Both the position numbers and the translations under genes were made by a program. The notes under the pieces were generated by a model, which saw only the letters and a list, made by a program, of their open reading frames with translations, searched no databases and had not been told where the DNA came from. Of a stretch of DNA of 43,157 nt, positions 1 to 8,434 are shown one piece after another. Source of the DNA: Lachnospiraceae bacterium A4 (lineage in GTDB: Bacteria > Bacillota > Clostridia > Lachnospirales > Lachnospiraceae); NCBI GenBank assembly GCA_000403215.2, contig KE159544.1:1-43157 (forward strand), read 5' to 3'. The number at the start of each line of letters is the position of its first letter. The stretch's first letter is position 1.

Positions 1-95
1 GCCTTATACTCAGCATTCCAAAATGTTAATCATTTTAAAGAATGCTGAGAAATAAGACGTTTTACTGCTAAAAGATGGGCATTATTCGTTAGCGC
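1..95. repeat. left end of RIT element: outer and inner inverted-repeat blocks plus a palindrome
   Basis: The outer block (1-36) begins GCCTTATAC and the inner block (70-85) begins AAAAGATG. Both recur inverted at the right end at identical distances. A long palindrome is nested here: CTCAGCATTC at 9-18 pairs with 40-49, AAAATG at 20-25 with 31-36, and CTTAT at 3-7 with 52-56. These are probably recombinase binding sites. The palindrome could also terminate transcription leaving the recombinase operon, which stops at 89. Confidence 0.75.
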
Positions 96-1126
96 AACCC
101 GCAAAGTCTTGCCATTTCATCTTCGTTGCCCTCCCACATTGGCACCTCATCAGATGCGGGTGTTGGGACAGATTCCATTGCGTCTCTAAGCTGTTCTACC
201 GATGGCTTTGCATAGTAGCTTTTAGTTGTATCAGTTCTGGCATGTCCTAACACTGTAGAAACTAGCTCAATGGCGATTCCATCCTGATAAAGATTTGTGG
301 CTCTGGTCCGGCGGAACATATGACAGTGAACCGAATCCGGAAGGCTAATCCCTGATTCTCTGACCAGAGCTGCATATTTTTTTATAATCCGCTGGACATT
401 TCCAACGGACATCCTGTCTGTTACACCTTTTATGGTTGTGGAAAATAAGTATGCTTCTTTGGAAGAATTACTGTGATATACACGTATATATTCCCTAAGG
501 TGTTCGACTGCTTTAGCTGTTAATTGTATGGTTCTCTCTTTATTACCTTTGCCGGTTATGAAAATGTTGGGATATTTTGATTCCATTGCGATATCACATA
601 AGCGAATACTAAGTAGCTCACTGATTCTTACAGCTGTATCGTAGAGAAGAATCAAAATAGCACGGTCTCGTACACCGAATTTCGTATTCGGCGGTGCGGA
701 CAGTATTGCAGCAAGTGCATCATCGGACAGAATAGGCTTTTCCTTTTTTATGGTTTTGCATGGTGAGATCTGACTGATTGCCAGGGCAACTGACTGGATT
801 GATATGTCCATATCCGAGGCATAATTCAGATAAGCACGGATAGCCGCGACTCTTACATTTACAGTTGATGGCTGGCTGCCATTTGCAAGCAGATATTCTC
901 TAAAATTATAAATACATTCTTTGGTGCAATCGGAAAACTGAAAGGTGCTTATAGACTTACCTAATTCACCTACAAGGTAGTTTTTAAATATTGTAAGGGA
1001 ATCTCTGTAGGATTCTGCTGTAGCCTGACTGCGTCCGGCCTGCTTTGCCAAATAAACATTTAGAAAGTTCCATGTCTGAGAAAAGAACAGCTGGTCAGTC
1101 GATATCTTTGCTGATTTATTCTTCAT
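89..1126 (-). CDS. tyrosine recombinase, third gene of the RIT trio
   Basis: 345-aa site-specific recombinase. The N-terminal SAM-like core-binding domain (about residues 15-115) precedes a catalytic domain. Visible catalytic motifs are an Arg in AVRISELLSIRL, the beta-hairpin Lys in GKGNKERTIQL, HMFRRTRAT (HxxR), LGHARTDTT (H) and the nucleophile Tyr in KSYYAKP. All RKHRHY positions appear present, so the enzyme should be active. The start is preceded by GGAGGTGATACCCT, and the gene overlaps the end of the preceding recombinase by 11 bp, indicating translational coupling. It is the last gene of the trio, and its stop lies between the inner inverted repeat and the coding region. The role within the trio (strand exchange or accessory) cannot be assigned from sequence. 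Confidence 0.9.
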   Translation of the reverse strand: MKNKSAKISTDQLFFSQTWNFLNVYLAKQAGRSQATAESYRDSLTIFKNYLVGELGKSISTFQFSDCTKECIYNFREYLLANGSQPSTVNVRVAAIRAYLNYASDMDISIQSVALAISQISPCKTIKKEKPILSDDALAAILSAPPNTKFGVRDRAILILLYDTAVRISELLSIRLCDIAMESKYPNIFITGKGNKERTIQLTAKAVEHLREYIRVYHSNSSKEAYLFSTTIKGVTDRMSVGNVQRIIKKYAALVRESGISLPDSVHCHMFRRTRATNLYQDGIAIELVSTVLGHARTDTTKSYYAKPSVEQLRDAMESVPTPASDEVPMWEGNEDEMARLCGLR

Positions 1127-2084
1127 AGGGTATCACCTCCGGAATGACCTTTCCAGACACTGAATCTTTCTCCCGGATGGTATCAAATGCCTTTTCTACA
1201 AGATGATAGTAATAATACGTTTCATCAGGACTTTTGTGTCCAAGGTATCTGCTTAAATATGGGAGCATAGTGTTTGTATCAATTCCCTGATGCATCCACT
1301 CATTAAATCTCTCTACTACAAAAGCATGGCGTAAACAGTGGGGTGTCGGATGTTTATCAATCGTCTTGGCAACCGGAAGCATAGCCCAATGGCGGTTAAA
1401 ACTTGATTCTACTCCAGAGCACGAAACAGGCTTATGTGGATCTTTTCCCGGAAAAGCCCAGTCAATTCCGGGGAAAAGCGTTTCCTGACGTTCTTTATAG
1501 TTTTTAAGTACCGGAAGGCTATCCTGTGGAAGATATACAAGACGGTCCTTGTTACCTTTTGAGCCAAGGACAGTAAGTATTCCTTTATCCAGGTCTATGT
1601 GCTCCCATTTTAGCAATCGCCCTTCTGACAGACGCAGACCACAGCAAAAATATAGGAGAAAAAGAATTTTGCACTCTCTATCGAGTCTAAATTGCTCTGA
1701 ATTATGAGACGTGCGGATATCCATTTTCTGTAGCAGTTCCTTTACTTCCTCTTTTGATGGAATGTAAAGAACAGGACGGTAAGCCTTGCAGAAAAAATTA
1801 GGAATGTATGCTTCCTGACCAAGGGAAAGGATATATTCACTCAGCACCTTCACTATCGACATACGGCGATTATGATAGGCATCTCCTTCGCCTGGTCTGG
1901 CTTCAGACCATTTGGCTGCCATTTCATAGGTGACTGTTGTCAGTTCCGGATAATTCTGTACGCAAAAGGTATCAAAGCGTTTTAACAGCTTTTCTTCGGA
2001 ATTATAGGCATATCCATCAGCTCGTTTTTGCTGTATAAGTCCTTCGATATGATGTGCCAGACCGCTCTCAAAAATGTATGTCAT
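1116..2084 (-). CDS. tyrosine recombinase, second gene of the RIT trio
   Basis: 322-aa phage-integrase-family protein. The N-terminal part (1-100) is the DNA-binding arm. The catalytic half shows GLRLSEGRLLKWEHID (first Arg), GSKGNKDRLVYLP (Lys), PHCLRHAFV (HxxR), LGHKSPDETYYYYH (His and the tyrosine cluster). The ATG overlaps the stop of the upstream recombinase as ATGA and has GGAGGTGTTTTATC before it, so start choice is firm. It ends 11 bp inside the third gene. The three proteins are clearly divergent from each other rather than recent duplicates, as expected for RIT elements, where the order of the three subfamilies is conserved. Confidence 0.9.
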   Translation of the reverse strand: MTYIFESGLAHHIEGLIQQKRADGYAYNSEEKLLKRFDTFCVQNYPELTTVTYEMAAKWSEARPGEGDAYHNRRMSIVKVLSEYILSLGQEAYIPNFFCKAYRPVLYIPSKEEVKELLQKMDIRTSHNSEQFRLDRECKILFLLYFCCGLRLSEGRLLKWEHIDLDKGILTVLGSKGNKDRLVYLPQDSLPVLKNYKERQETLFPGIDWAFPGKDPHKPVSCSGVESSFNRHWAMLPVAKTIDKHPTPHCLRHAFVVERFNEWMHQGIDTNTMLPYLSRYLGHKSPDETYYYYHLVEKAFDTIREKDSVSGKVIPEVIPYEE

Positions 2085-3982
2085 GATAAAACACCTCCAA
2101 ATTCCAAAGGGCAGAGCCTCATTTTAACTTCGTCACGTTCAAGATATACCTCGGCAGTTTCCTGACGTGCATGCCCGAGAGCATTGGAAATATCATCAAG
2201 TTTGTTGTCTGCCCGGAGCATTCTTGTGGCAAATGTTTTTCGTGTCATATGAAAGCCCTGACCAGCAGATAATTCAAATCCATATTCAGCAAGTATTCTT
2301 TTTAAAGCTCCACGGCACGCCGTTGTAACTTTAAGCGGAATATATGGCGCCTGATGGCGGATAAATATATATCCGCTGCCTGTGGCAGCTGCTTCCGGAC
2401 GTCCATTCATGATGTATTTATATACAGAATTACCTGCATCTGTTGGGACTGGAAGCGTGATTGCTTTCCCTGTTTTCTGCTGGATGAAGGAAACAGTTTT
2501 GTTTTTCCAGTCAAAATCATTTACCTGAAGCTTTAGAATGTCTGCTCCCCTGATACCCATCCTGAGGCCGAGCATAACCATAGCTGTGTCCCTGAGTTCT
2601 ATGGGAGTGGAAGCTTTCTCACGGTATTCATATATTTTTTCGACCATATCGTCGCTCAGAACATCAGCTATGCTGCGATGGGGAGCGCAGCTTGCGGATA
2701 CTGCAAAAACAAGTGTTGGCGGAACCAGATCCTGGTCAGCCATGTACCGCAGAAGCTGACGGAGCTTTGCCCCATATGCATTTTTACTTTCCGGGGTCGA
2801 GTGGACATCATGGTTATGAAACGCTTTCACTACATGAGGTGTTATGGACAATGGGTTGTCTATTCCATTATCTTCAAGATATTTGAAGAAACCGCATCCG
2901 GCAGCCCTGCACATGGTAAGTGTATTATTAGTCATTCCATCCCGCCTTCGGTTCTCTATAAAACCATCAAGGATGCTTTTGCTCCATGGCGGAAGATGAT
3001 CGGACGCACGCTTTGGATCAGCAGTCATATTAGATTCCATTGTGCCCTGGAGATACTTTTCAAACATTTTGATCGTGTGTGAACGGTGGGCCGATACAGA
3101 ATTGCTGGCTTTGGACTGATTCGGACAATCCGGAAGTATATCTATCCATAGGGCTACAGTTTCTGCCGAATGTTCCAGGCGGTTAAGTTCCAAAAACATG
3201 AAATACCATGTGAAATCATTGCGGTAAACAGCTTTTGATGATTCCGTGTATTTCCAATCGTCCAAGGCGTCAAGATACTCTTCCGCTTTATGTTCAAGAG
3301 GTACACTGGGATGGAATGCGGCGCCTGTTTTGGGGAGTTTCATACCGGGCAGTATTTCAGCGTTACCGCCAAAAAGAACCAGCTGATAACACTCCGGCAC
3401 ATCACCCCGGAGGTGAAGGTATTTCATAAGCGCCGTCATGGCGCATACGGCGTTCTGGCATCTGTCGGGAGAGCCACAGGATTTGCAGTAAGTATTCCAG
3501 TATTCGATAAGAGTATCTATGGTGACTGCTTCCGGCTCTGTAATTCCAAGGGAAGTCGCAAGCTTGAAAAACTCTTTTGTGGCAACGGAATACGTATGGT
3601 AATAGCTGGGATTCTGGTTGGACGCATAGTATTTCTCCAACTCATATGTCAGGCGGAAAAAGGATTCCGACATCCCGCTACGGCAGAAAAAACTGTCTTC
3701 TGAGCGGCAGAAAGGACTTTCGATATCTCCAAAGAGCAGGTAATGCTCAAGGCGGAACAGGGCGTTTCTATATTGGGAACATGTCTCATAGGAAATTTCC
3801 TGTTTCTTAATCTCAAGCCAGTCCAGCGCGGCATCCACTGAAAAAGGAATGCCCTTTTCCATCAGGTGTTTGAAGAGCGTGGTGTAACAGGTTCTGTGCA
3901 TGTCTATATTCTTACATGCACTGTCTGGCTGCTTCATCATATTGAGGACTGATGAAACAGCATCTAAATAGTTTATTTGCAT
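2081..3982 (-). CDS. large tyrosine recombinase, first gene of the RIT trio
   Basis: 633-aa recombinase, much longer than the two that follow. The open frame extends upstream to 4138, but that stretch reads through the element end. The ATG at 3982 (MQINYLDAVSS) has AAAGGAG about ten bases upstream and is preferred. The long N-terminal half (to about residue 390) looks like repeated core-binding helical segments. The catalytic domain follows: LRMGIRGADILKL (Arg), QKTGKAITLPV (Lys), FHMTRKTFATRML (HxxR), LGHARQETAEVYLERD (His and Tyr). Size and architecture recall TnpB of Tn554, but Tn554's third gene (TnpC) is not a tyrosine recombinase, whereas here all three are. It is probably transcribed from inside the right end of the element. 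Confidence 0.88.
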   Translation of the reverse strand: MQINYLDAVSSVLNMMKQPDSACKNIDMHRTCYTTLFKHLMEKGIPFSVDAALDWLEIKKQEISYETCSQYRNALFRLEHYLLFGDIESPFCRSEDSFFCRSGMSESFFRLTYELEKYYASNQNPSYYHTYSVATKEFFKLATSLGITEPEAVTIDTLIEYWNTYCKSCGSPDRCQNAVCAMTALMKYLHLRGDVPECYQLVLFGGNAEILPGMKLPKTGAAFHPSVPLEHKAEEYLDALDDWKYTESSKAVYRNDFTWYFMFLELNRLEHSAETVALWIDILPDCPNQSKASNSVSAHRSHTIKMFEKYLQGTMESNMTADPKRASDHLPPWSKSILDGFIENRRRDGMTNNTLTMCRAAGCGFFKYLEDNGIDNPLSITPHVVKAFHNHDVHSTPESKNAYGAKLRQLLRYMADQDLVPPTLVFAVSASCAPHRSIADVLSDDMVEKIYEYREKASTPIELRDTAMVMLGLRMGIRGADILKLQVNDFDWKNKTVSFIQQKTGKAITLPVPTDAGNSVYKYIMNGRPEAAATGSGYIFIRHQAPYIPLKVTTACRGALKRILAEYGFELSAGQGFHMTRKTFATRMLRADNKLDDISNALGHARQETAEVYLERDEVKMRLCPLEFGGVLS

Positions 3983-4033
3983 ATCAAATGCGCTCCTTTC
4001 CGGCTTCCCATTCGAGGGGAAAACCTGAGAACA

Positions 4034-4127
4034 GCGTATCTGATAATGCTCATCTTTTGTACAAGAAAGTGAGGATTTATGGGAGATAATATAAAAAATC
4101 AACATTATAAAAACATGGGTATAACGC
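4034..4127. repeat. right end of RIT element: outer and inner inverted-repeat blocks
   Basis: Read on the minus strand from 4127 it begins GCGTTATAC, the partner of the left end. The inner block at 4043-4058 matches the left inner block in 15 of 16 positions, and in both cases the block starts 69 nt in from the end. The strong palindrome of the left end is not conserved here. Base 4128 onwards belongs to the interrupted antirestriction gene. Confidence 0.75.
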
Positions 4128-5522
4128 CTGTACCTCACGGGTGCGGCGGTCTGGTCGGTCTGCCTGCTTCTCTGCGGGTGCGTTAAGGTCTATGTCATGC
4201 AGCTTGGCGTGTGCAATCTCATGTATCAGCGTTTTAAGGTTCTGCAGCTCGCTCATGCCCTCGTTAATGGCAATGCGTTTTTCGGTCTGTGAGTAGTAGC
4301 CCTTTGCGCCGTTTTCTATCTTTTCAAATCCTACCGGGGCGGGGCTTGCCTGCTCGGTTGCCTTGAAGAAATCGGCGTACTGTGCCACGTCCCCGGTCAG
4401 CTCGTCAACGCCGATAGTGGGAAGCTCCTTTCCCTCGGTCTGCGACACGTCAAAGACGGAAACCACCTTGAACGCCGGGACGGTTACTTCCGTTTCTTCC
4501 TTGACGGGTTTTCCGTCTTTGCCAATCACGGGCTTTTGGGTCTTGGGGTCGATTTTGTCAACTTCCTTTTTCACTTTGTAGGGGGACGGGGCAATCACTT
4601 TGATACTTTTTGCATGGCTTACCACCTGCCGCCCGTATTTCTGTTTCCATGAGGTATAGCCCGCTACAAAGGTTGCGTCCGGCTTCTGCATGGCGATTAA
4701 GAGGGTATTGTTAAAGCTGTAATCATGGAATGTTGACATTACCTGCAAATATTCTTTGAAGCGGTCACTCTCGAATAAATCCTGTATGCCCTGTTCCAGT
4801 CTGTCCGTTATCTCTTTCATCTTCTCGGCGGGCTTCTGCGCCGTTAATTCAATGGGGCGTATGGGATTGGCGGCGGCTATGTCAACCGGGGCGGTGCGTT
4901 CCGCTTCGGGGTAGCCCATGATACGGTATTTCTCCGGCGTTTCCTGCCCGGCGTAAACCTCTTTCCAGTCCGTCCCGCTTCTTGCGATATAACCGTAGTC
5001 GGTCAGCTTCCCGTCCTCATGGAGTGCGGCGTTGAAGCCGAAACTTTCCTTGTCAATCCCGGCTTTCCATTCCTCCGGCATTTGCACTTTGCCGCTGTCA
5101 TTGAGGAAATAATCGCCCAATTCCTTATAGCTTAAAATTCCCGGAATGTAGGAATAAAAATCTGTGTTATAGGTGTGGTCTATCAGCTTGTCAAGGCTTT
5201 CCGGCTTGAAGCCGCTGTGCATAACAGCGTCCAGTTTTTCAAGCTGCTCCGGGGTCATTTCTTCCAGTCGGGAAGCAAGGAAATTTATCCTGTCAAGGTC
5301 GCCGTCCCTTATCCAGTCAGAGGGTATCTCAATCCGTCTGCCCTCGGCGGTGGAATAGCCGTTCAAGAAAAAATCCTGTGGGTTATCGGCTGTGATGTTC
5401 AGTGCTTTCATGGCTTCGTGGAGTTCTTCTTTTGTGGCGGGCAGGGAGAGGAACACGGTCGCCGGGTTGCCCTTTTCAAATTCGGTGCGGTTCTGTATCA
5501 GCATGGTAAAATCATCTTTCAT
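4077..5522 (-). pseudogene. ArdA/ArdC-like antirestriction metalloprotein, C-terminus removed by the RIT insertion
   Basis: About 465 codons of ICE coding sequence (5522 down to 4128) are followed by 17 codons read from the RIT end. The N-terminal part resembles ArdA-type antirestriction segments (PATKEELHEAMKALN, NPQDFFLNGY). The middle resembles the ArdC/LtrC ssDNA-binding domain (FKEYLQVMSTFHDYSFNNTL, TWKQKYGRQV-like). A zinc-protease motif, LIHEIAHAKLHD, follows. The expected continuation after the REVQA stretch is missing, so the product is truncated after the HEIAH helix. The start at 5522 is chosen over 5528 because GGAG is 8 nt away. In intact ICEs such proteins are thought to protect incoming single-stranded DNA from restriction. 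The remaining C-terminal coding part should lie left of the window. Confidence 0.8.
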
Positions 5523-5581
5523 TGGCATAGCTCCTTTCTCGGTTTTTGATTTTTAGAGGGTTTGGGACACTTCCCAACAAG

Positions 5582-5645
5582 CAAAATCCCCACAAGTCCG
5601 CAGGACGGAAAAGTGGGGGTTTTACGGGATTGGGTACTCAATCCC
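5582..5645 (-). terminator. two hairpins between topB and the antirestriction gene
   Basis: GGGATTG pairs with CAATCCC at 5626-5645. Next in the direction of transcription, CCCCAC/GTGGGG (5588-5593 with 5613-5618) encloses TCCG/CGGA and is followed by ATTTTG. The second resembles a rho-independent terminator or attenuator that would lower expression of the downstream antirestriction gene. The U-run is short, so efficiency may be partial. Confidence 0.5.
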
Positions 5646-5668
5646 TATGCTTGCTATTCTTCTGTGGG

Positions 5669-7765
5669 TTACTTCTTGGGTTTTGGCTTCTTGGTCTGCT
5701 TCAACTCGATTTTGTAATTGACATACTTTTCTCCCGTGTCTGCAAGCAGCACGTCAGCTTCATAGGTCTTGCCCGTTTTCTCGGAATACAAGCCTTTCAT
5801 GGCTGCCCTGCCTTTGCTAAGTAAAGCGGCGGCAATGGAAGCGGTCAGCTCCTTTTTCTTGCCCGTAAAAAAGCGGTCATTTTTCCACATGGAGAATTGA
5901 CAGTCTTTGCTGCTGCAATAAAAATTTTTCTTCCCCTCATAGACGGGAGAGCCACACCGGGGACACTTGCCGATTTCCTTTCGCTCCGGCGCAAACAGCT
6001 TTTTCTTTTCCTCCGGGACGGCGGCATAATCATTGACAAGCCCCGCCGCCATAGCTTCAATGCCACGCATGAAGCTGTCCGGGTCGGCTTCGCCTTTTGC
6101 AATCTCCGTCAGAGCGTTTTCCCATTCAGCGGTCAGCTTCGGGCTTGTGAGGGTGTCGGGCAGGACGGCGACAAGGTTCTTGCCATCTTTGGTGGGGATA
6201 AGCTGCTTTTTCTTCCTCTCCACAAATCCCGCCTGCACAAGTTTTTCCAGTACCGCCGCACGGGTGGCGGGAGTGCCTAACCCTTTTCGCTCTGCGTCCT
6301 CGGTAATGTCCCCGCTTCCTGCCCGTTCCATTGCGGACAGTAAAGTATCTTCCGTATAGGCTTTCGGGGGCGTTGTGTCATGCTCGGTCATGGCTGCTTT
6401 TGCCTTGATTTCCTGTCCCTCGGTCAGCTCCGGCAAGGGGGGTTCTTTTGCGGTTTTCCCGTCCTCCGGCTTGGTTTTTAAGGTGGCACGGAAGCGGTGT
6501 TCCAGTTCCTTAAAGCCCTCGCATTTGACGGTCTTTCCTTTTGCTGTAAAGGTTACGCCGCCGCAGGAGAGGGAAGCGGTCACGGCTTCGTATCGGTGGG
6601 GCTGCGCCGTTGCGGATAACAGTTTCATGGAGAGCAGGAGCAGGATATTTCTTTCACTTTCCGGCAGGCTGCCCTTGTCCGTCTTTACCGCTTCGGCGGT
6701 GGGAATGATTGCGTGGTGGTCGGTCACTTTTTTGCTGTTCAGTATGCGGGAATAGTCCGGGGCAAGGTCAACGCCCTTTGCAAAGTCCAGTGTACCGAAA
6801 AGCCCGGACACGATAGTTTCAGCGGTGGGGAGCATATCGTCCGTGAGATATTGGCTGTCCGTCCGGGGGTAGGTGCATAGCTTCTTTTCATAGAGCGATT
6901 GGGTATAGTCAAGGGTCTGTTTGGCGGTGTAGCCGTAAAGCCTGTTTGCTTCCCGCTGCAAGGTTGTTAAGTCGTAAAGGCGGGGCGGGTTCTCGGTCTT
7001 TTCTTCCCGGACAAGGGAAGTGCATACCGCCGTTTCCCCGTCACAATCCTTGCGGAGCTTTTCGGCTTCGGTTTTCTCTGTGTAAGGCGGGCTTGTCGCT
7101 TCAAAAGTACCGTTGCCGATATGCACCACATAGTATTTTTTCTTCTGAAAATTTTCTATGGCGTTGTCACGTTCCACAAGCAGGGAGAGGGTCGGTGTCT
7201 GTACCCGCCCCACGTTCAAGGTGTGGTTGTAGAGGACGGAAAAAAGACGGGTCGCATTGATACCGATCAGCCAGTCAGCCTTTGCCCGGCAGAGTGCGGA
7301 ATGATACAGCGGGTCGTAGTCGTGTCCGTCCCGCAAATCCTCAAAGCCCTTTCTGATTGCGCTTTCCTCCATGCTGCTAATCCATAGGCGGTAGAACGGC
7401 TTTTCACACCCGGCTTTCTCATAGACAAAGCGGAAAATCAGTTCCCCCTCACGCCCTGCGTCCGTGGCGCAAATGAGGGCTTCCACGTCTGCCCGGTGCA
7501 TGAGGTTCTTTAAGGTTTCAAACTGTTCTTCCTTGTCCGGGGATATGACGGTTTCCCACGTTTGGGGCAGGATTGGTAAATCCTCATAACGCCATTTCTT
7601 AAAATCCCCGTAGTGGGTAGCGTCTGCCAGTCCCGCAAGATGTCCCACGCACCAACTAACAAGATAGCCTGCGCCCTCCATGTAGCCGTCCTTTTTTTCG
7701 TCTGCGCCGATCACGGCGGCGATTGACATTGCCACGCTCGGTTTTTCTGCGATTACCAACTGCAT
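5669..7765 (-). CDS. topB: DNA topoisomerase III (type IA)
   Basis: 698-aa type IA topoisomerase that relaxes and decatenates DNA by cleaving one strand. The Toprim domain starts MQLVIAEKPSVA and carries ICATDAGREGELIFR. The active-site tyrosine lies in LCTYPRTDSQYL near residue 298. The C-terminus carries a zinc-ribbon-like CPRCGSPVYE...CSSKDC segment and a lysine-rich tail. The open frame extends to 7807, but the ATG at 7765 has AGGAGG 7 nt upstream and begins at the conserved MQLVIAEKP. Topoisomerase III genes are a constant part of Tn1549/CTn4-type ICEs, where they probably resolve transfer intermediates. A terminator lies just upstream, separating it from the flavodoxin gene. Confidence 0.95.
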   Translation of the reverse strand: MQLVIAEKPSVAMSIAAVIGADEKKDGYMEGAGYLVSWCVGHLAGLADATHYGDFKKWRYEDLPILPQTWETVISPDKEEQFETLKNLMHRADVEALICATDAGREGELIFRFVYEKAGCEKPFYRLWISSMEESAIRKGFEDLRDGHDYDPLYHSALCRAKADWLIGINATRLFSVLYNHTLNVGRVQTPTLSLLVERDNAIENFQKKKYYVVHIGNGTFEATSPPYTEKTEAEKLRKDCDGETAVCTSLVREEKTENPPRLYDLTTLQREANRLYGYTAKQTLDYTQSLYEKKLCTYPRTDSQYLTDDMLPTAETIVSGLFGTLDFAKGVDLAPDYSRILNSKKVTDHHAIIPTAEAVKTDKGSLPESERNILLLLSMKLLSATAQPHRYEAVTASLSCGGVTFTAKGKTVKCEGFKELEHRFRATLKTKPEDGKTAKEPPLPELTEGQEIKAKAAMTEHDTTPPKAYTEDTLLSAMERAGSGDITEDAERKGLGTPATRAAVLEKLVQAGFVERKKKQLIPTKDGKNLVAVLPDTLTSPKLTAEWENALTEIAKGEADPDSFMRGIEAMAAGLVNDYAAVPEEKKKLFAPERKEIGKCPRCGSPVYEGKKNFYCSSKDCQFSMWKNDRFFTGKKKELTASIAAALLSKGRAAMKGLYSEKTGKTYEADVLLADTGEKYVNYKIELKQTKKPKPKK

Positions 7766-7786
7766 ATAAATTTCCTCCTTTTTGGC

Positions 7787-7819
7787 ACAAAAAAAGAGCA
7801 ACCGCATTAACGATTACTC
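7787..7819 (-). terminator. rho-independent terminator after the flavodoxin gene
   Basis: On the minus strand GAGTAATCG (7819-7811) pairs with CGGTTGCTC (7804-7796), with two G-U pairs, and is followed by seven T residues. It ends the transcript of the flavodoxin gene only 22 bp before the topB start codon. topB must therefore rely on read-through or a promoter inside this interval. Confidence 0.75.
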
Positions 7820-7852
7820 TTAAAAATATAGGATTGATAAGTTTTTTTGTGT

Positions 7853-8434
7853 TTAGGAATATATATTTTTCCCAAACTCATAGGCTCTCTGTAAATGGTC
7901 TGTTTTGTCAATCTGTGGTTTCCCGTTTGTGTCCCCGCAGCCGCCCGCAAGCAGCATACCTTTGTCATGGAAGCCTATGTAATTGACAATGGCAAACTGA
8001 TAATAGGACGCTGCCTGTTCAAACGTCCAAAAGAAATTATCAGCGGCGGTCATAAGGAGCGCACTGTCTTTGACGGGGTATTTCTCATAGCGTCCCAATG
8101 GCGGGTTATTATCTTCCTCCGCAATACAGTAAAATCTTTCGATAAATGCTTTTATTCTTGATGATATAGTCCAAAAATAAAGCGGGGAAGCAAAAACAAT
8201 CAAGTCCGCATTTTTGATTTTGGGGACAAGTTCGTTGAAGCTGTCTTTCTGAATACATGGCTTTCCATATCGGCAAGCGTTACAGCCTAAACAGCCTTTT
8301 ACCTCGTTCTTCAAAAGGGAGATTGTTTCAACGCTGTGTCCTGCGTCCGTTGCGCCTTTTTCAAAACTTGCCGTTAATTGTGCGGTGTTGCCTTTGGGTC
8401 GTCCCCCGCCTTTAATGATAAGTATATTTTTCAT
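7853..8434 (-). CDS. flavodoxin-family NAD(P)H-dependent FMN oxidoreductase
   Basis: 193-aa cytosolic flavoprotein of the NADPH-dependent FMN reductase/iron-sulfur flavoprotein type. The N-terminus MKNILIIKGGGRPKGNT is the FMN phosphate-binding loop, and GCLGCNACRYGKPC is the cysteine cluster seen in this family. ASPLYFWTISSRIKAFIERF is the flavin-contact segment. The family reduces quinones, flavins or nitro compounds, and the substrate here cannot be told. It has its own AAAGGAAAGATACACC ribosome-binding region and its own terminator. It sits inside the conjugation operon between topB and the Cys-rich gene, a position with no obvious transfer role, so it is probably cargo. Confidence 0.85.
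   Translation of the reverse strand: MKNILIIKGGGRPKGNTAQLTASFEKGATDAGHSVETISLLKNEVKGCLGCNACRYGKPCIQKDSFNELVPKIKNADLIVFASPLYFWTISSRIKAFIERFYCIAEEDNNPPLGRYEKYPVKDSALLMTAADNFFWTFEQAASYYQFAIVNYIGFHDKGMLLAGGCGDTNGKPQIDKTDHLQRAYEFGKNIYS

Follow-up and report, generated by a model that had tools for sequence, protein, structure and literature searches.

A RIT element with a 20-bp palindrome beyond one end and a candidate attachment site with two opposed core sites

The RIT element at the start of the window

The window, the whole stretch of 43,157 nucleotides analysed here (contig KE159544.1 of Lachnospiraceae bacterium A4), starts with a RIT (recombinase in trio) element, a small mobile DNA with three recombinase genes. 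The initial annotation had recognised it as such, and this was borne out by three overlapping genes that run in the same direction and all encode a PF00589 domain. The locus comprises the following features.

1..3, plus strand: GCC, the final 3 bp of the left 6-bp overlap, which continues past the contig edge (the four junctions with a left flank have GAAGCC or GAGGCC)
4..4124, minus strand: RIT element with imperfect terminal inverted repeats (TTATAC...GTATAA) and its operon on the minus strand
4..20, plus strand: left O1, outer core arm (offset 0-16), placed from the family consensus
9..49: 10-bp inverted repeat in the left end, CTCAGCATTC at 9-18 and GAATGCTGAG at 40-49
21..34, plus strand: left O2, degenerate direct copy (+17), placed from the family consensus
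70..85, plus strand: left O3, the inner block of the initial annotation, 15/16 to the right end and seen in relatives
89..1126, minus strand: RitC, tyrosine recombinase of 345 aa with PF00589 and SAM-like domains
1116..2084, minus strand: RitB, tyrosine recombinase of 322 aa with PF00589, 30.0% to the RIT of pHG1
2081..3982, minus strand: RitA, long form of 633 aa with PF00589, apparently four tandem helical modules and a catalytic domain
4043..4058, minus strand: right O3, the inner block, 15/16 to the left end and seen in relatives
4094..4107, minus strand: right O2, placed from the family consensus
4108..4124, minus strand: right O1, placed from the family consensus
4125..4130, plus strand: right 6-bp overlap CGCCTG (CAGGCG when read along the target gene)
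4131..5528, minus strand: 5′ part of the interrupted target gene, an antirestriction fusion of the ArdA-ArdC type

The genes lie in the order A-B-C with overlaps of 4 nt (RitA/RitB) and 11 nt (RitB/RitC), and only 85 and 142 bp of the element lie outside them. For RitA, the ATG at 3982 was chosen as start; a 685-aa open reading frame with a GTG start extends into the flank. The three proteins are homologous to the canonical RitA, RitB and RitC. RitB was compared directly with pHG1 (30.0%, E 4e-31), which is among the 699 plasmid records with RitB homologues; RitC was compared with relatives other than pHG1, and the RitA alignment comprised 27 relatives, eight of them 407-419 aa long and none from pHG1. 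Residues R151, K176, R252, H283 and Y292 are invariant in the RitB alignment, as are R478, K503, H578 and R581 in that of RitA, where Y613 is nearly invariant. By reading of its single sequence, RitC has the catalytic residues as well. The tyrosine named as catalytic in each member of the trio is a predicted one.

The window element belongs to the long-RitA group of RITs: among 51 clusters of elements from the survey below, RitA has at least 600 aa in 15 and fewer than 460 aa in 30. An AlphaFold model of the protein (mean pLDDT 84.1; pTM 0.49, with uncertain placement of the modules) matched XerA, an integron integrase, lambda Int, Cre and the Tn1549 Int in Foldseek. According to the model, RitA apparently carries four tandem core-binding-like modules in front of the catalytic domain, which were given this name because of their place and their helices. 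Using hhalign, module 1 matched module 3 (98.9%), module 2 matched module 4 (99.4%) and module 3 matched module 4 (96.0%), with modules 1 and 2 barely matching (7.5%); this pattern suggests the duplication of a core-binding domain pair. The Pfam SAM-like domain PF02899 was detected in 14 of the 28 aligned RitA proteins and is absent from the RitA of the window. A RitA with two core-binding domains and a RitC with an extra C-terminal helix have been described (PMC8138268; here and below, papers cited by PMC number are represented by the excerpts available to us), and modules 3 and 4 would supply these two domains as judged from the predicted model and the profiles.

The initial annotation had framed the element as 1..4127 and had reported ends composed of two blocks. 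In that frame both blocks were reproduced, the outer one at 24/36 positions and the inner one (AAAAGATGGGCATTAT and AAAAGATGAGCATTAT) at 15/16 with an offset of 69 nt on both sides; these values exceed those of all 5,000 trials with letter-shuffled 130-nt ends (maximum 21/36 and 12/16). In the frame 4..4124, the inner block matches at 15/16 with an offset of 66 nt. Repeats of 34 bp have been reported for RITs (PMC10214605), and terminal inverted repeats of about this length are present in weak form in the window element (23/36 in the frame 4..4124) and in strong form in its relatives.

Alignment of the ends of the 51 clusters gave the consensus TTATCCtcAgtaTTTta TTATCCtcAgtTTT, which represents one motif in two direct copies 17 nt apart. 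We take the outer 34 nt with these two copies to be the known 34-bp RIT repeat. A third, inverted copy (at least 11/14) was found at 78 of the 102 ends (0.75 on average after shuffling); the inner block corresponds to this copy. It is located at 66-69 nt in 61 ends, at 77-80 nt in nine, at 86-90 nt in six and once each at 56 and 109 nt; the remaining 24 ends lack it at the 11/14 limit. The spacing of 69 nt, originally proposed from a single element, is thus kept in relatives. The preferred positions lie ~10-11 nt apart, as expected if proteins must occupy one helix face, and the direct (O2) and inverted (O3) copies may serve as accessory sites held in helical phase. In the window element the motif copies are weaker (8-11 of 14). 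The suggestion of two recombinase binding sites per end holds in so far as two blocks exist, but there are three motif copies per end, and a palindrome lies outside one of the ends.

Junctions in the host genome and a natural empty site

The host assembly (7.0 Mb, 40 contigs) contains eight half-junctions of the window element, four with the right and four with the left flank, all at contig ends and without a mismatch over 4,124 nt. We read them as four identical copies that were collapsed by the assembler; multiple identical copies have been regarded as a hint of mobility of RITs (PMC3414803). Since every copy lies at contig ends, the flanks cannot be paired there, and since the contig breaks off at position 1 in a collapsed repeat, the left end placed there is an assembly limit and not a measured end. 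The junctions do allow the ends to be defined, as the initial annotation had expected of this copy, but its coordinates 1..4127 have to be replaced by 4..4124; positions 1-3 (GCC) are part of a 6-bp overlap and not of the element. A DNA search with the whole window element gave no match among plasmids and phages. In the sample of the family, 10 of 397 genomes matched, its own included and the others with short stretches only, and in the genus 2 of 38 matched, its own and one with a 50-nt end fragment.

The gene interrupted in the window encodes PF07275 (ArdA), PF08401 (ArdcN) and metallopeptidase domains within 4200-5528. All eight flanking half-genes are homologous by translation and belong to related antirestriction genes. 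Their 5′ halves (T5) end with REVQA, REVQA, KEVEA and EEVEA, and the 3′ halves (T3) start with QAE or EAE and then share a conserved AY/SY.VCQ stretch. Identity among the 5′ halves amounts to 64-78% in their aligned parts, which indicates different genes. At the four T5 junctions, the target is joined directly to the element end with the 6-bp overlaps GAAGCC, GAGGCC, CAGGCG and CAGGCT. At all four T3 junctions, 6 bp, the exact 20-mer AAATGGATACATTAACATTT and another 6 bp are located between element and target. This 20-mer, in which six of ten positions pair, the outer five among them (positions by eye), is missing from all four T5 junctions, and a search of the whole genome with up to two mismatches returned only the four T3 places. 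It lies beyond the left end of the element at two of them and beyond the right end at the other two, and its orientation with respect to the element is constant. This indicates that both insertion directions exist and that the 20-mer travels with the element. As the right end of the window copy joins the target gene directly, its 20-bp stretch and 6 bp would be expected to the left, off the contig.

An independent, 93% identical copy with both flanks (L026) has the structure GAAGCG - element - TGCTTC - AAATGGAAACATTAACATTT - GAAGCG. Joining its flanks at the 6-bp repeat restored an open frame, and the joined flanks match a plasmid record of Vescimonas fastidiosa at 96% over 1,401 bp without a gap. 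This natural empty site does not contain the 20-mer and is uninterrupted, so that the insertion consists of the element plus 6 + 20 + 6 bp.

The 6-20-6 layout and opposite insertion directions among RITs

For a survey of the family, the RitB alignment was used to collect RIT loci from GTDB contigs, with the best 80 of 186 relatives retained, and from IMG/VR (64 loci); five plasmid loci (L084-L086, L088 and L089, from the 699 records) were added. We parsed 119 loci, leaving out L142, L167, L184, L204-L207, L209-L231 and the plasmid locus L087. RitA and RitC of at least 300 aa were present in 100 of the 119, and 73 of these 100, which had enough flank, formed 62 clusters at ≥90% identity; an Allorhizobium RIT (L086) was dropped because of its short RitC.

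Terminal repeats of at least 18/24 were found in 58 of the 62 clusters and none at that limit in the other four. Under a strict test (TSD of at least 5/6 and palindrome of at least 7/10), the layout 6-element-6-20-6 was detected in 37 of the 62 clusters from several phyla (38 under slightly different limits), compared to a mean of 0.02 and a maximum of 1 in 200 runs with shuffled flanks of the 58 clusters with terminal repeats; as the ends were picked with the tested features inside the score and the shuffle control was limited to end pairs at most 6 nt away, this comparison somewhat favours the layout. The palindrome alone (at least 7/10) occurred in 51 of the 58 clusters (null mean 3.65, maximum 9), and L026, L113 and L156, which are among the seven below this limit, were palindrome-like on inspection. 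The window element would itself fail these family limits, with end repeats of 17/24 and its palindrome of 6/10. Strict cases include Clostridium punense, Paenibacillus cremeus and a Parabacteroides, metagenome-assembled genomes assigned to Spirochaetales, Akkermansia and Chloroflexi, and plasmid RITs of Cupriavidus, Rhodococcus and Priestia; a Sphingobium plasmid RIT fits the layout weakly.

Agreement between the two target 6-mers of the 51 palindrome clusters is 6/6 in 23, 5/6 in 14, 4/6 in seven, 3/6 in five and 2/6 in two. The side of the palindrome is mixed (30 near ritA, 21 near ritC). Different elements have different palindromes, and copies of a single element carry the same or almost the same one. 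Most palindromes start with a TTAT-type motif, so that a circle junction would have this motif flanking both 6-bp overlaps. A scan of spacer lengths gave 38 clusters at 20, 23 at 18 and 30 at 22, with 3-13 at other even lengths and 0-2 at odd ones. Lengths of 18 and 22 also score because a palindromic junction allows the ends to shift by 1 nt, and 5/22/5 is possible in some elements; odd lengths shift the centre by half a base, so that their low counts test the centre and not the length alone. The junctions of the window genome, L026, Priestia and Rhodococcus fit 6/20/6.

Two pairs of near-identical RITs at matching targets have the element reversed and the palindrome on the unchanged target side. 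The first consists of identical 3,436-bp copies on two plasmids of Priestia megaterium CDC 2008724142 (L088 and L236), which are inserted in opposite directions. Their flanks are homologous by eye, the palindrome lies on the same target side and hence at different element ends, and the 6-mers agree at 6/6 in one copy and 3/6 in L236. The second pair, from Rhodococcus opacus and R. pseudokoreensis (L085 and L238), consists of RITs that are 99% identical and share one insertion site but point in opposite directions; here, too, the palindrome does not change its target side, and the 6-mers match at 5/6 and 6/6. The neighbours of the Rhodococcus RIT are annotated as reverse transcriptase and intron maturase, and by our reading of the flank the place of insertion may be the GTPQGG/VISPL motif. 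RitB of the R. pseudokoreensis copy is annotated in two pieces. The side is also switched between L122 and L132 (97% identical; 6-mers of L132 2/6) and between L153 and L155 (96%; 6-mers of L155 2/6), and in the latter pair the orientation of the palindrome follows the target and not the element (by eye). Three further loci, L135 with a palindrome at both ends and no second copy in its genome, and L175 and L199 with a palindrome at neither end, look like products of recombination between copies.

Possible routes of insertion and relation to known systems

We propose that the element would move by tyrosine-recombinase exchange over the 6-bp overlap via a circular form. The junction of this circle would read end - 6 bp (X) - 20-bp palindrome - 6 bp (Y) - end. 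X and Y would each lie between an outer arm (TTATnn, provided by the element) and an inner arm (one half of the palindrome), and the circle would thus contain two complete core sites that face opposite ways. Recombination of Y with the target would lead to one orientation and recombination of X to the other, and in either outcome one end would be joined directly to the target, with the other keeping 6 + 20 bp followed by the second 6-bp copy. Identity of the reverse complement of X with a target 6-mer is not required by a two-core circle. That the RIT moves through a circle, presumably double-stranded, with two opposed core sites, either of which may be used for integration, is in our estimate the probable reading of these sequences (roughly 0.63). 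For RITs as a family, we regard it as slightly better than an even bet that they possess a two-faced attachment site, in which a palindrome lies between two 6-bp overlaps and one core is intact in every integrated copy, and that they can insert in either direction and may invert while integrated.

X differs from the complement of Y at three of the four window-genome junctions at which both are visible. Together with the element-fixed orientation of the 20-mer, this favours re-integration from a circle. Among the 51 palindrome clusters, the reverse complement of X is exactly one of the two target 6-mers in 31, which would also allow an in-place flip or a folded single strand as substrate. For the family as a whole, the sequences are compatible with these two routes and with the circle.

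A single-stranded substrate, which we consider unlikely, would let the joined ends fold so that an arm, the X:Y pair and a palindrome half form one core site, and insertion of either stem arm of the hairpin would give the two orientations. Such a principle exists in the attP of the CTX phage, in which paired inverted sites fold and the single-strand fold is the substrate. The RIT junction is often one long inverted repeat, with terminal repeats of 24/24 in 29 of the 51 palindrome clusters and at least 23/24 in 41, and the 31 clusters with exact agreement of X as well as the 37 clusters in which the palindrome pairs in 9-10 of 10 positions are in line with this route. However, the window element gave four identical copies despite its poorly matching ends and 20-mer, and the three junctions at which X does not complement Y argue against such a stem.

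Orientation might also be set mainly by in-place inversion, in which the directly joined end would recombine with the intact internal core, the element would flip and the palindrome would stay. The Rhodococcus pair, with its opposite directions at one site and the palindrome on the same target side, agrees with this, as does the palindrome that follows the target in L153/L155. Furthermore, 21 of the 51 clusters have a direct-side 6-mer identical to the reverse complement of X (in 14 both target copies match it, in seven that side alone). In the window genome, however, the orientation of the 20-mer is tied to that of the element in both states, and no internal 6-mer complements any direct-side 6-mer under any pairing of the flanks. 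As the main source of orientation, in-place inversion therefore appears improbable to us, and it may instead act beside integration through either core.

It is very doubtful that the two states arose by homologous recombination between copies that had all been inserted one way. The apparent hybrids L135, L175 and L199 might be taken as its products, but exchange within the element swaps flanks between copies, and a left flank always stays a left flank, so that both states must pre-exist, and the element of L135 is single-copy in its genome. Lastly, the palindrome could be target DNA, for example a terminator, favoured as neighbour of RIT insertions, as it looks like flank at any single locus without a second copy, but this is hardly tenable given the same 20-mer at four junctions in different target genes of one genome, the natural empty site that lacks it and the element-specific palindromes common, or nearly so, to the copies of each element.

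RITs, their ~34-bp repeats and IS66 and radC as targets are known already, and a palindromic sequence close to the ends has been mentioned. Insertions in radC and IS66 tnpA have been reported (PMC2864759). In 2012, no convincing repeats were described besides a '28-9 bp inverted repeat and overlapping palindromic sequence', and no mechanism was given (PMC3414803); a table from 2023 lists target specificity, empty site and movement of RITs as not tested (PMC10214605, Table 1). In the excerpts available, neither a 6-20-6 layout, both orientations or a two-core junction of RITs, nor a recombinase with four core-binding domains, nor a two-core attachment-site design of tyrosine-recombinase transposons is described; Ricker et al. 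2013 (Plasmid) and Van Houdt 2009 lie outside this scope. At least the palindrome may have been described before, and PMC3414803 contains a hint of it. The ends, the overlap, the palindrome, the empty site, the two orientations and the three-copy end motif, all deduced from sequences that include relatives of several phyla, provide exact substrates for testing how three recombinases divide their work. They also suggest a boundary rule, according to which the true insertion of a RIT extends 6 + 20 + 6 bp past the inverted repeat at one end.

Several mobile elements share parts of this organisation. The strand-biased circularizing integrative elements (SE) have a 6-bp overlap or footprint, inverted ends, two tyrosine recombinases and site selectivity, but their circle junction contains a single core site (C-6-C′), they have four conserved genes, tfp and srap among them, and they are larger (PMC10214605). 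GInt islands resemble RITs in three integrase-like genes, a circle and 6-nt staggered cuts, but contain a fourth gene, ginD, and cargo of 2.5 to ≥70 kb, and a 20-bp palindrome is not described in the available part of the source (PMC5385486). Neither a fourth core gene (ginD or srap) nor cargo was found in the window element, given the 85 and 142 bp outside its trio. Tn554 likewise combines one large and one ordinary tyrosine recombinase with a 6-bp footprint and imperfect inverted ends (PMC10214605). It differs in its set of two recombinases and TnpC, for which an influence on orientation is reported (PMC3414803), and the excerpts of these two papers describe no palindrome module for it; in the window element all three proteins contain PF00589, and no further gene would fit as a non-recombinase TnpC beside TnpA and TnpB. 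Integron attC sites, like the RIT junction, consist of paired inverted sites able to fold, and the attC substrate is the single-strand fold (PMC2727003). Among RITs, those of Cupriavidus metallidurans CH34 and pHG1 likewise have three overlapping genes in the same direction and terminal repeats of ~34 bp. The pHG1 RIT shares the 6-20-6 layout with the window element, which is set apart from both by its RitA of 633 aa with apparently four core-binding-like modules instead of two.

Neighbourhood and targets

Three genes were assigned to the following stretch, and together they may perhaps represent a piece of an integrative conjugative element:
within window 4131-8434, minus strand, interrupted ArdA-ArdC antirestriction gene
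within window 4131-8434, minus strand, topoisomerase gene (Topoisom_bac)
within window 4131-8434, minus strand, FMN reductase gene

As read from the flank codons, the relatives L061, L062 and L064 are inserted in IS66 tnpB or tnpC genes; L061 and L096 are located on one and the same contig.

Element ends and palindromes

The left end of the window element contains a 10-bp inverted repeat (window 9-18 and 40-49, loop of 21 nt), and no similar repeat was seen at the right end. A palindrome-like stretch of 50 nt at a contig end from the same genus (L024/L077; G421:C28:5-54) shares 88% identity with this left end and is possibly a remnant or miniature derivative. A palindrome, elsewhere lying outside one element end only, was detected at each of the two ends of the RIT copy L135 and at neither end of the RIT copies L175 and L199. 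Recombination between copies might have resulted in these end states.

RitA modules

According to the AlphaFold model and hhalign profile comparison, the long RitA (window 2081-3982, minus strand) seems to contain four core-binding-like modules in tandem, an arrangement that looks like a doubling of the usual pair.
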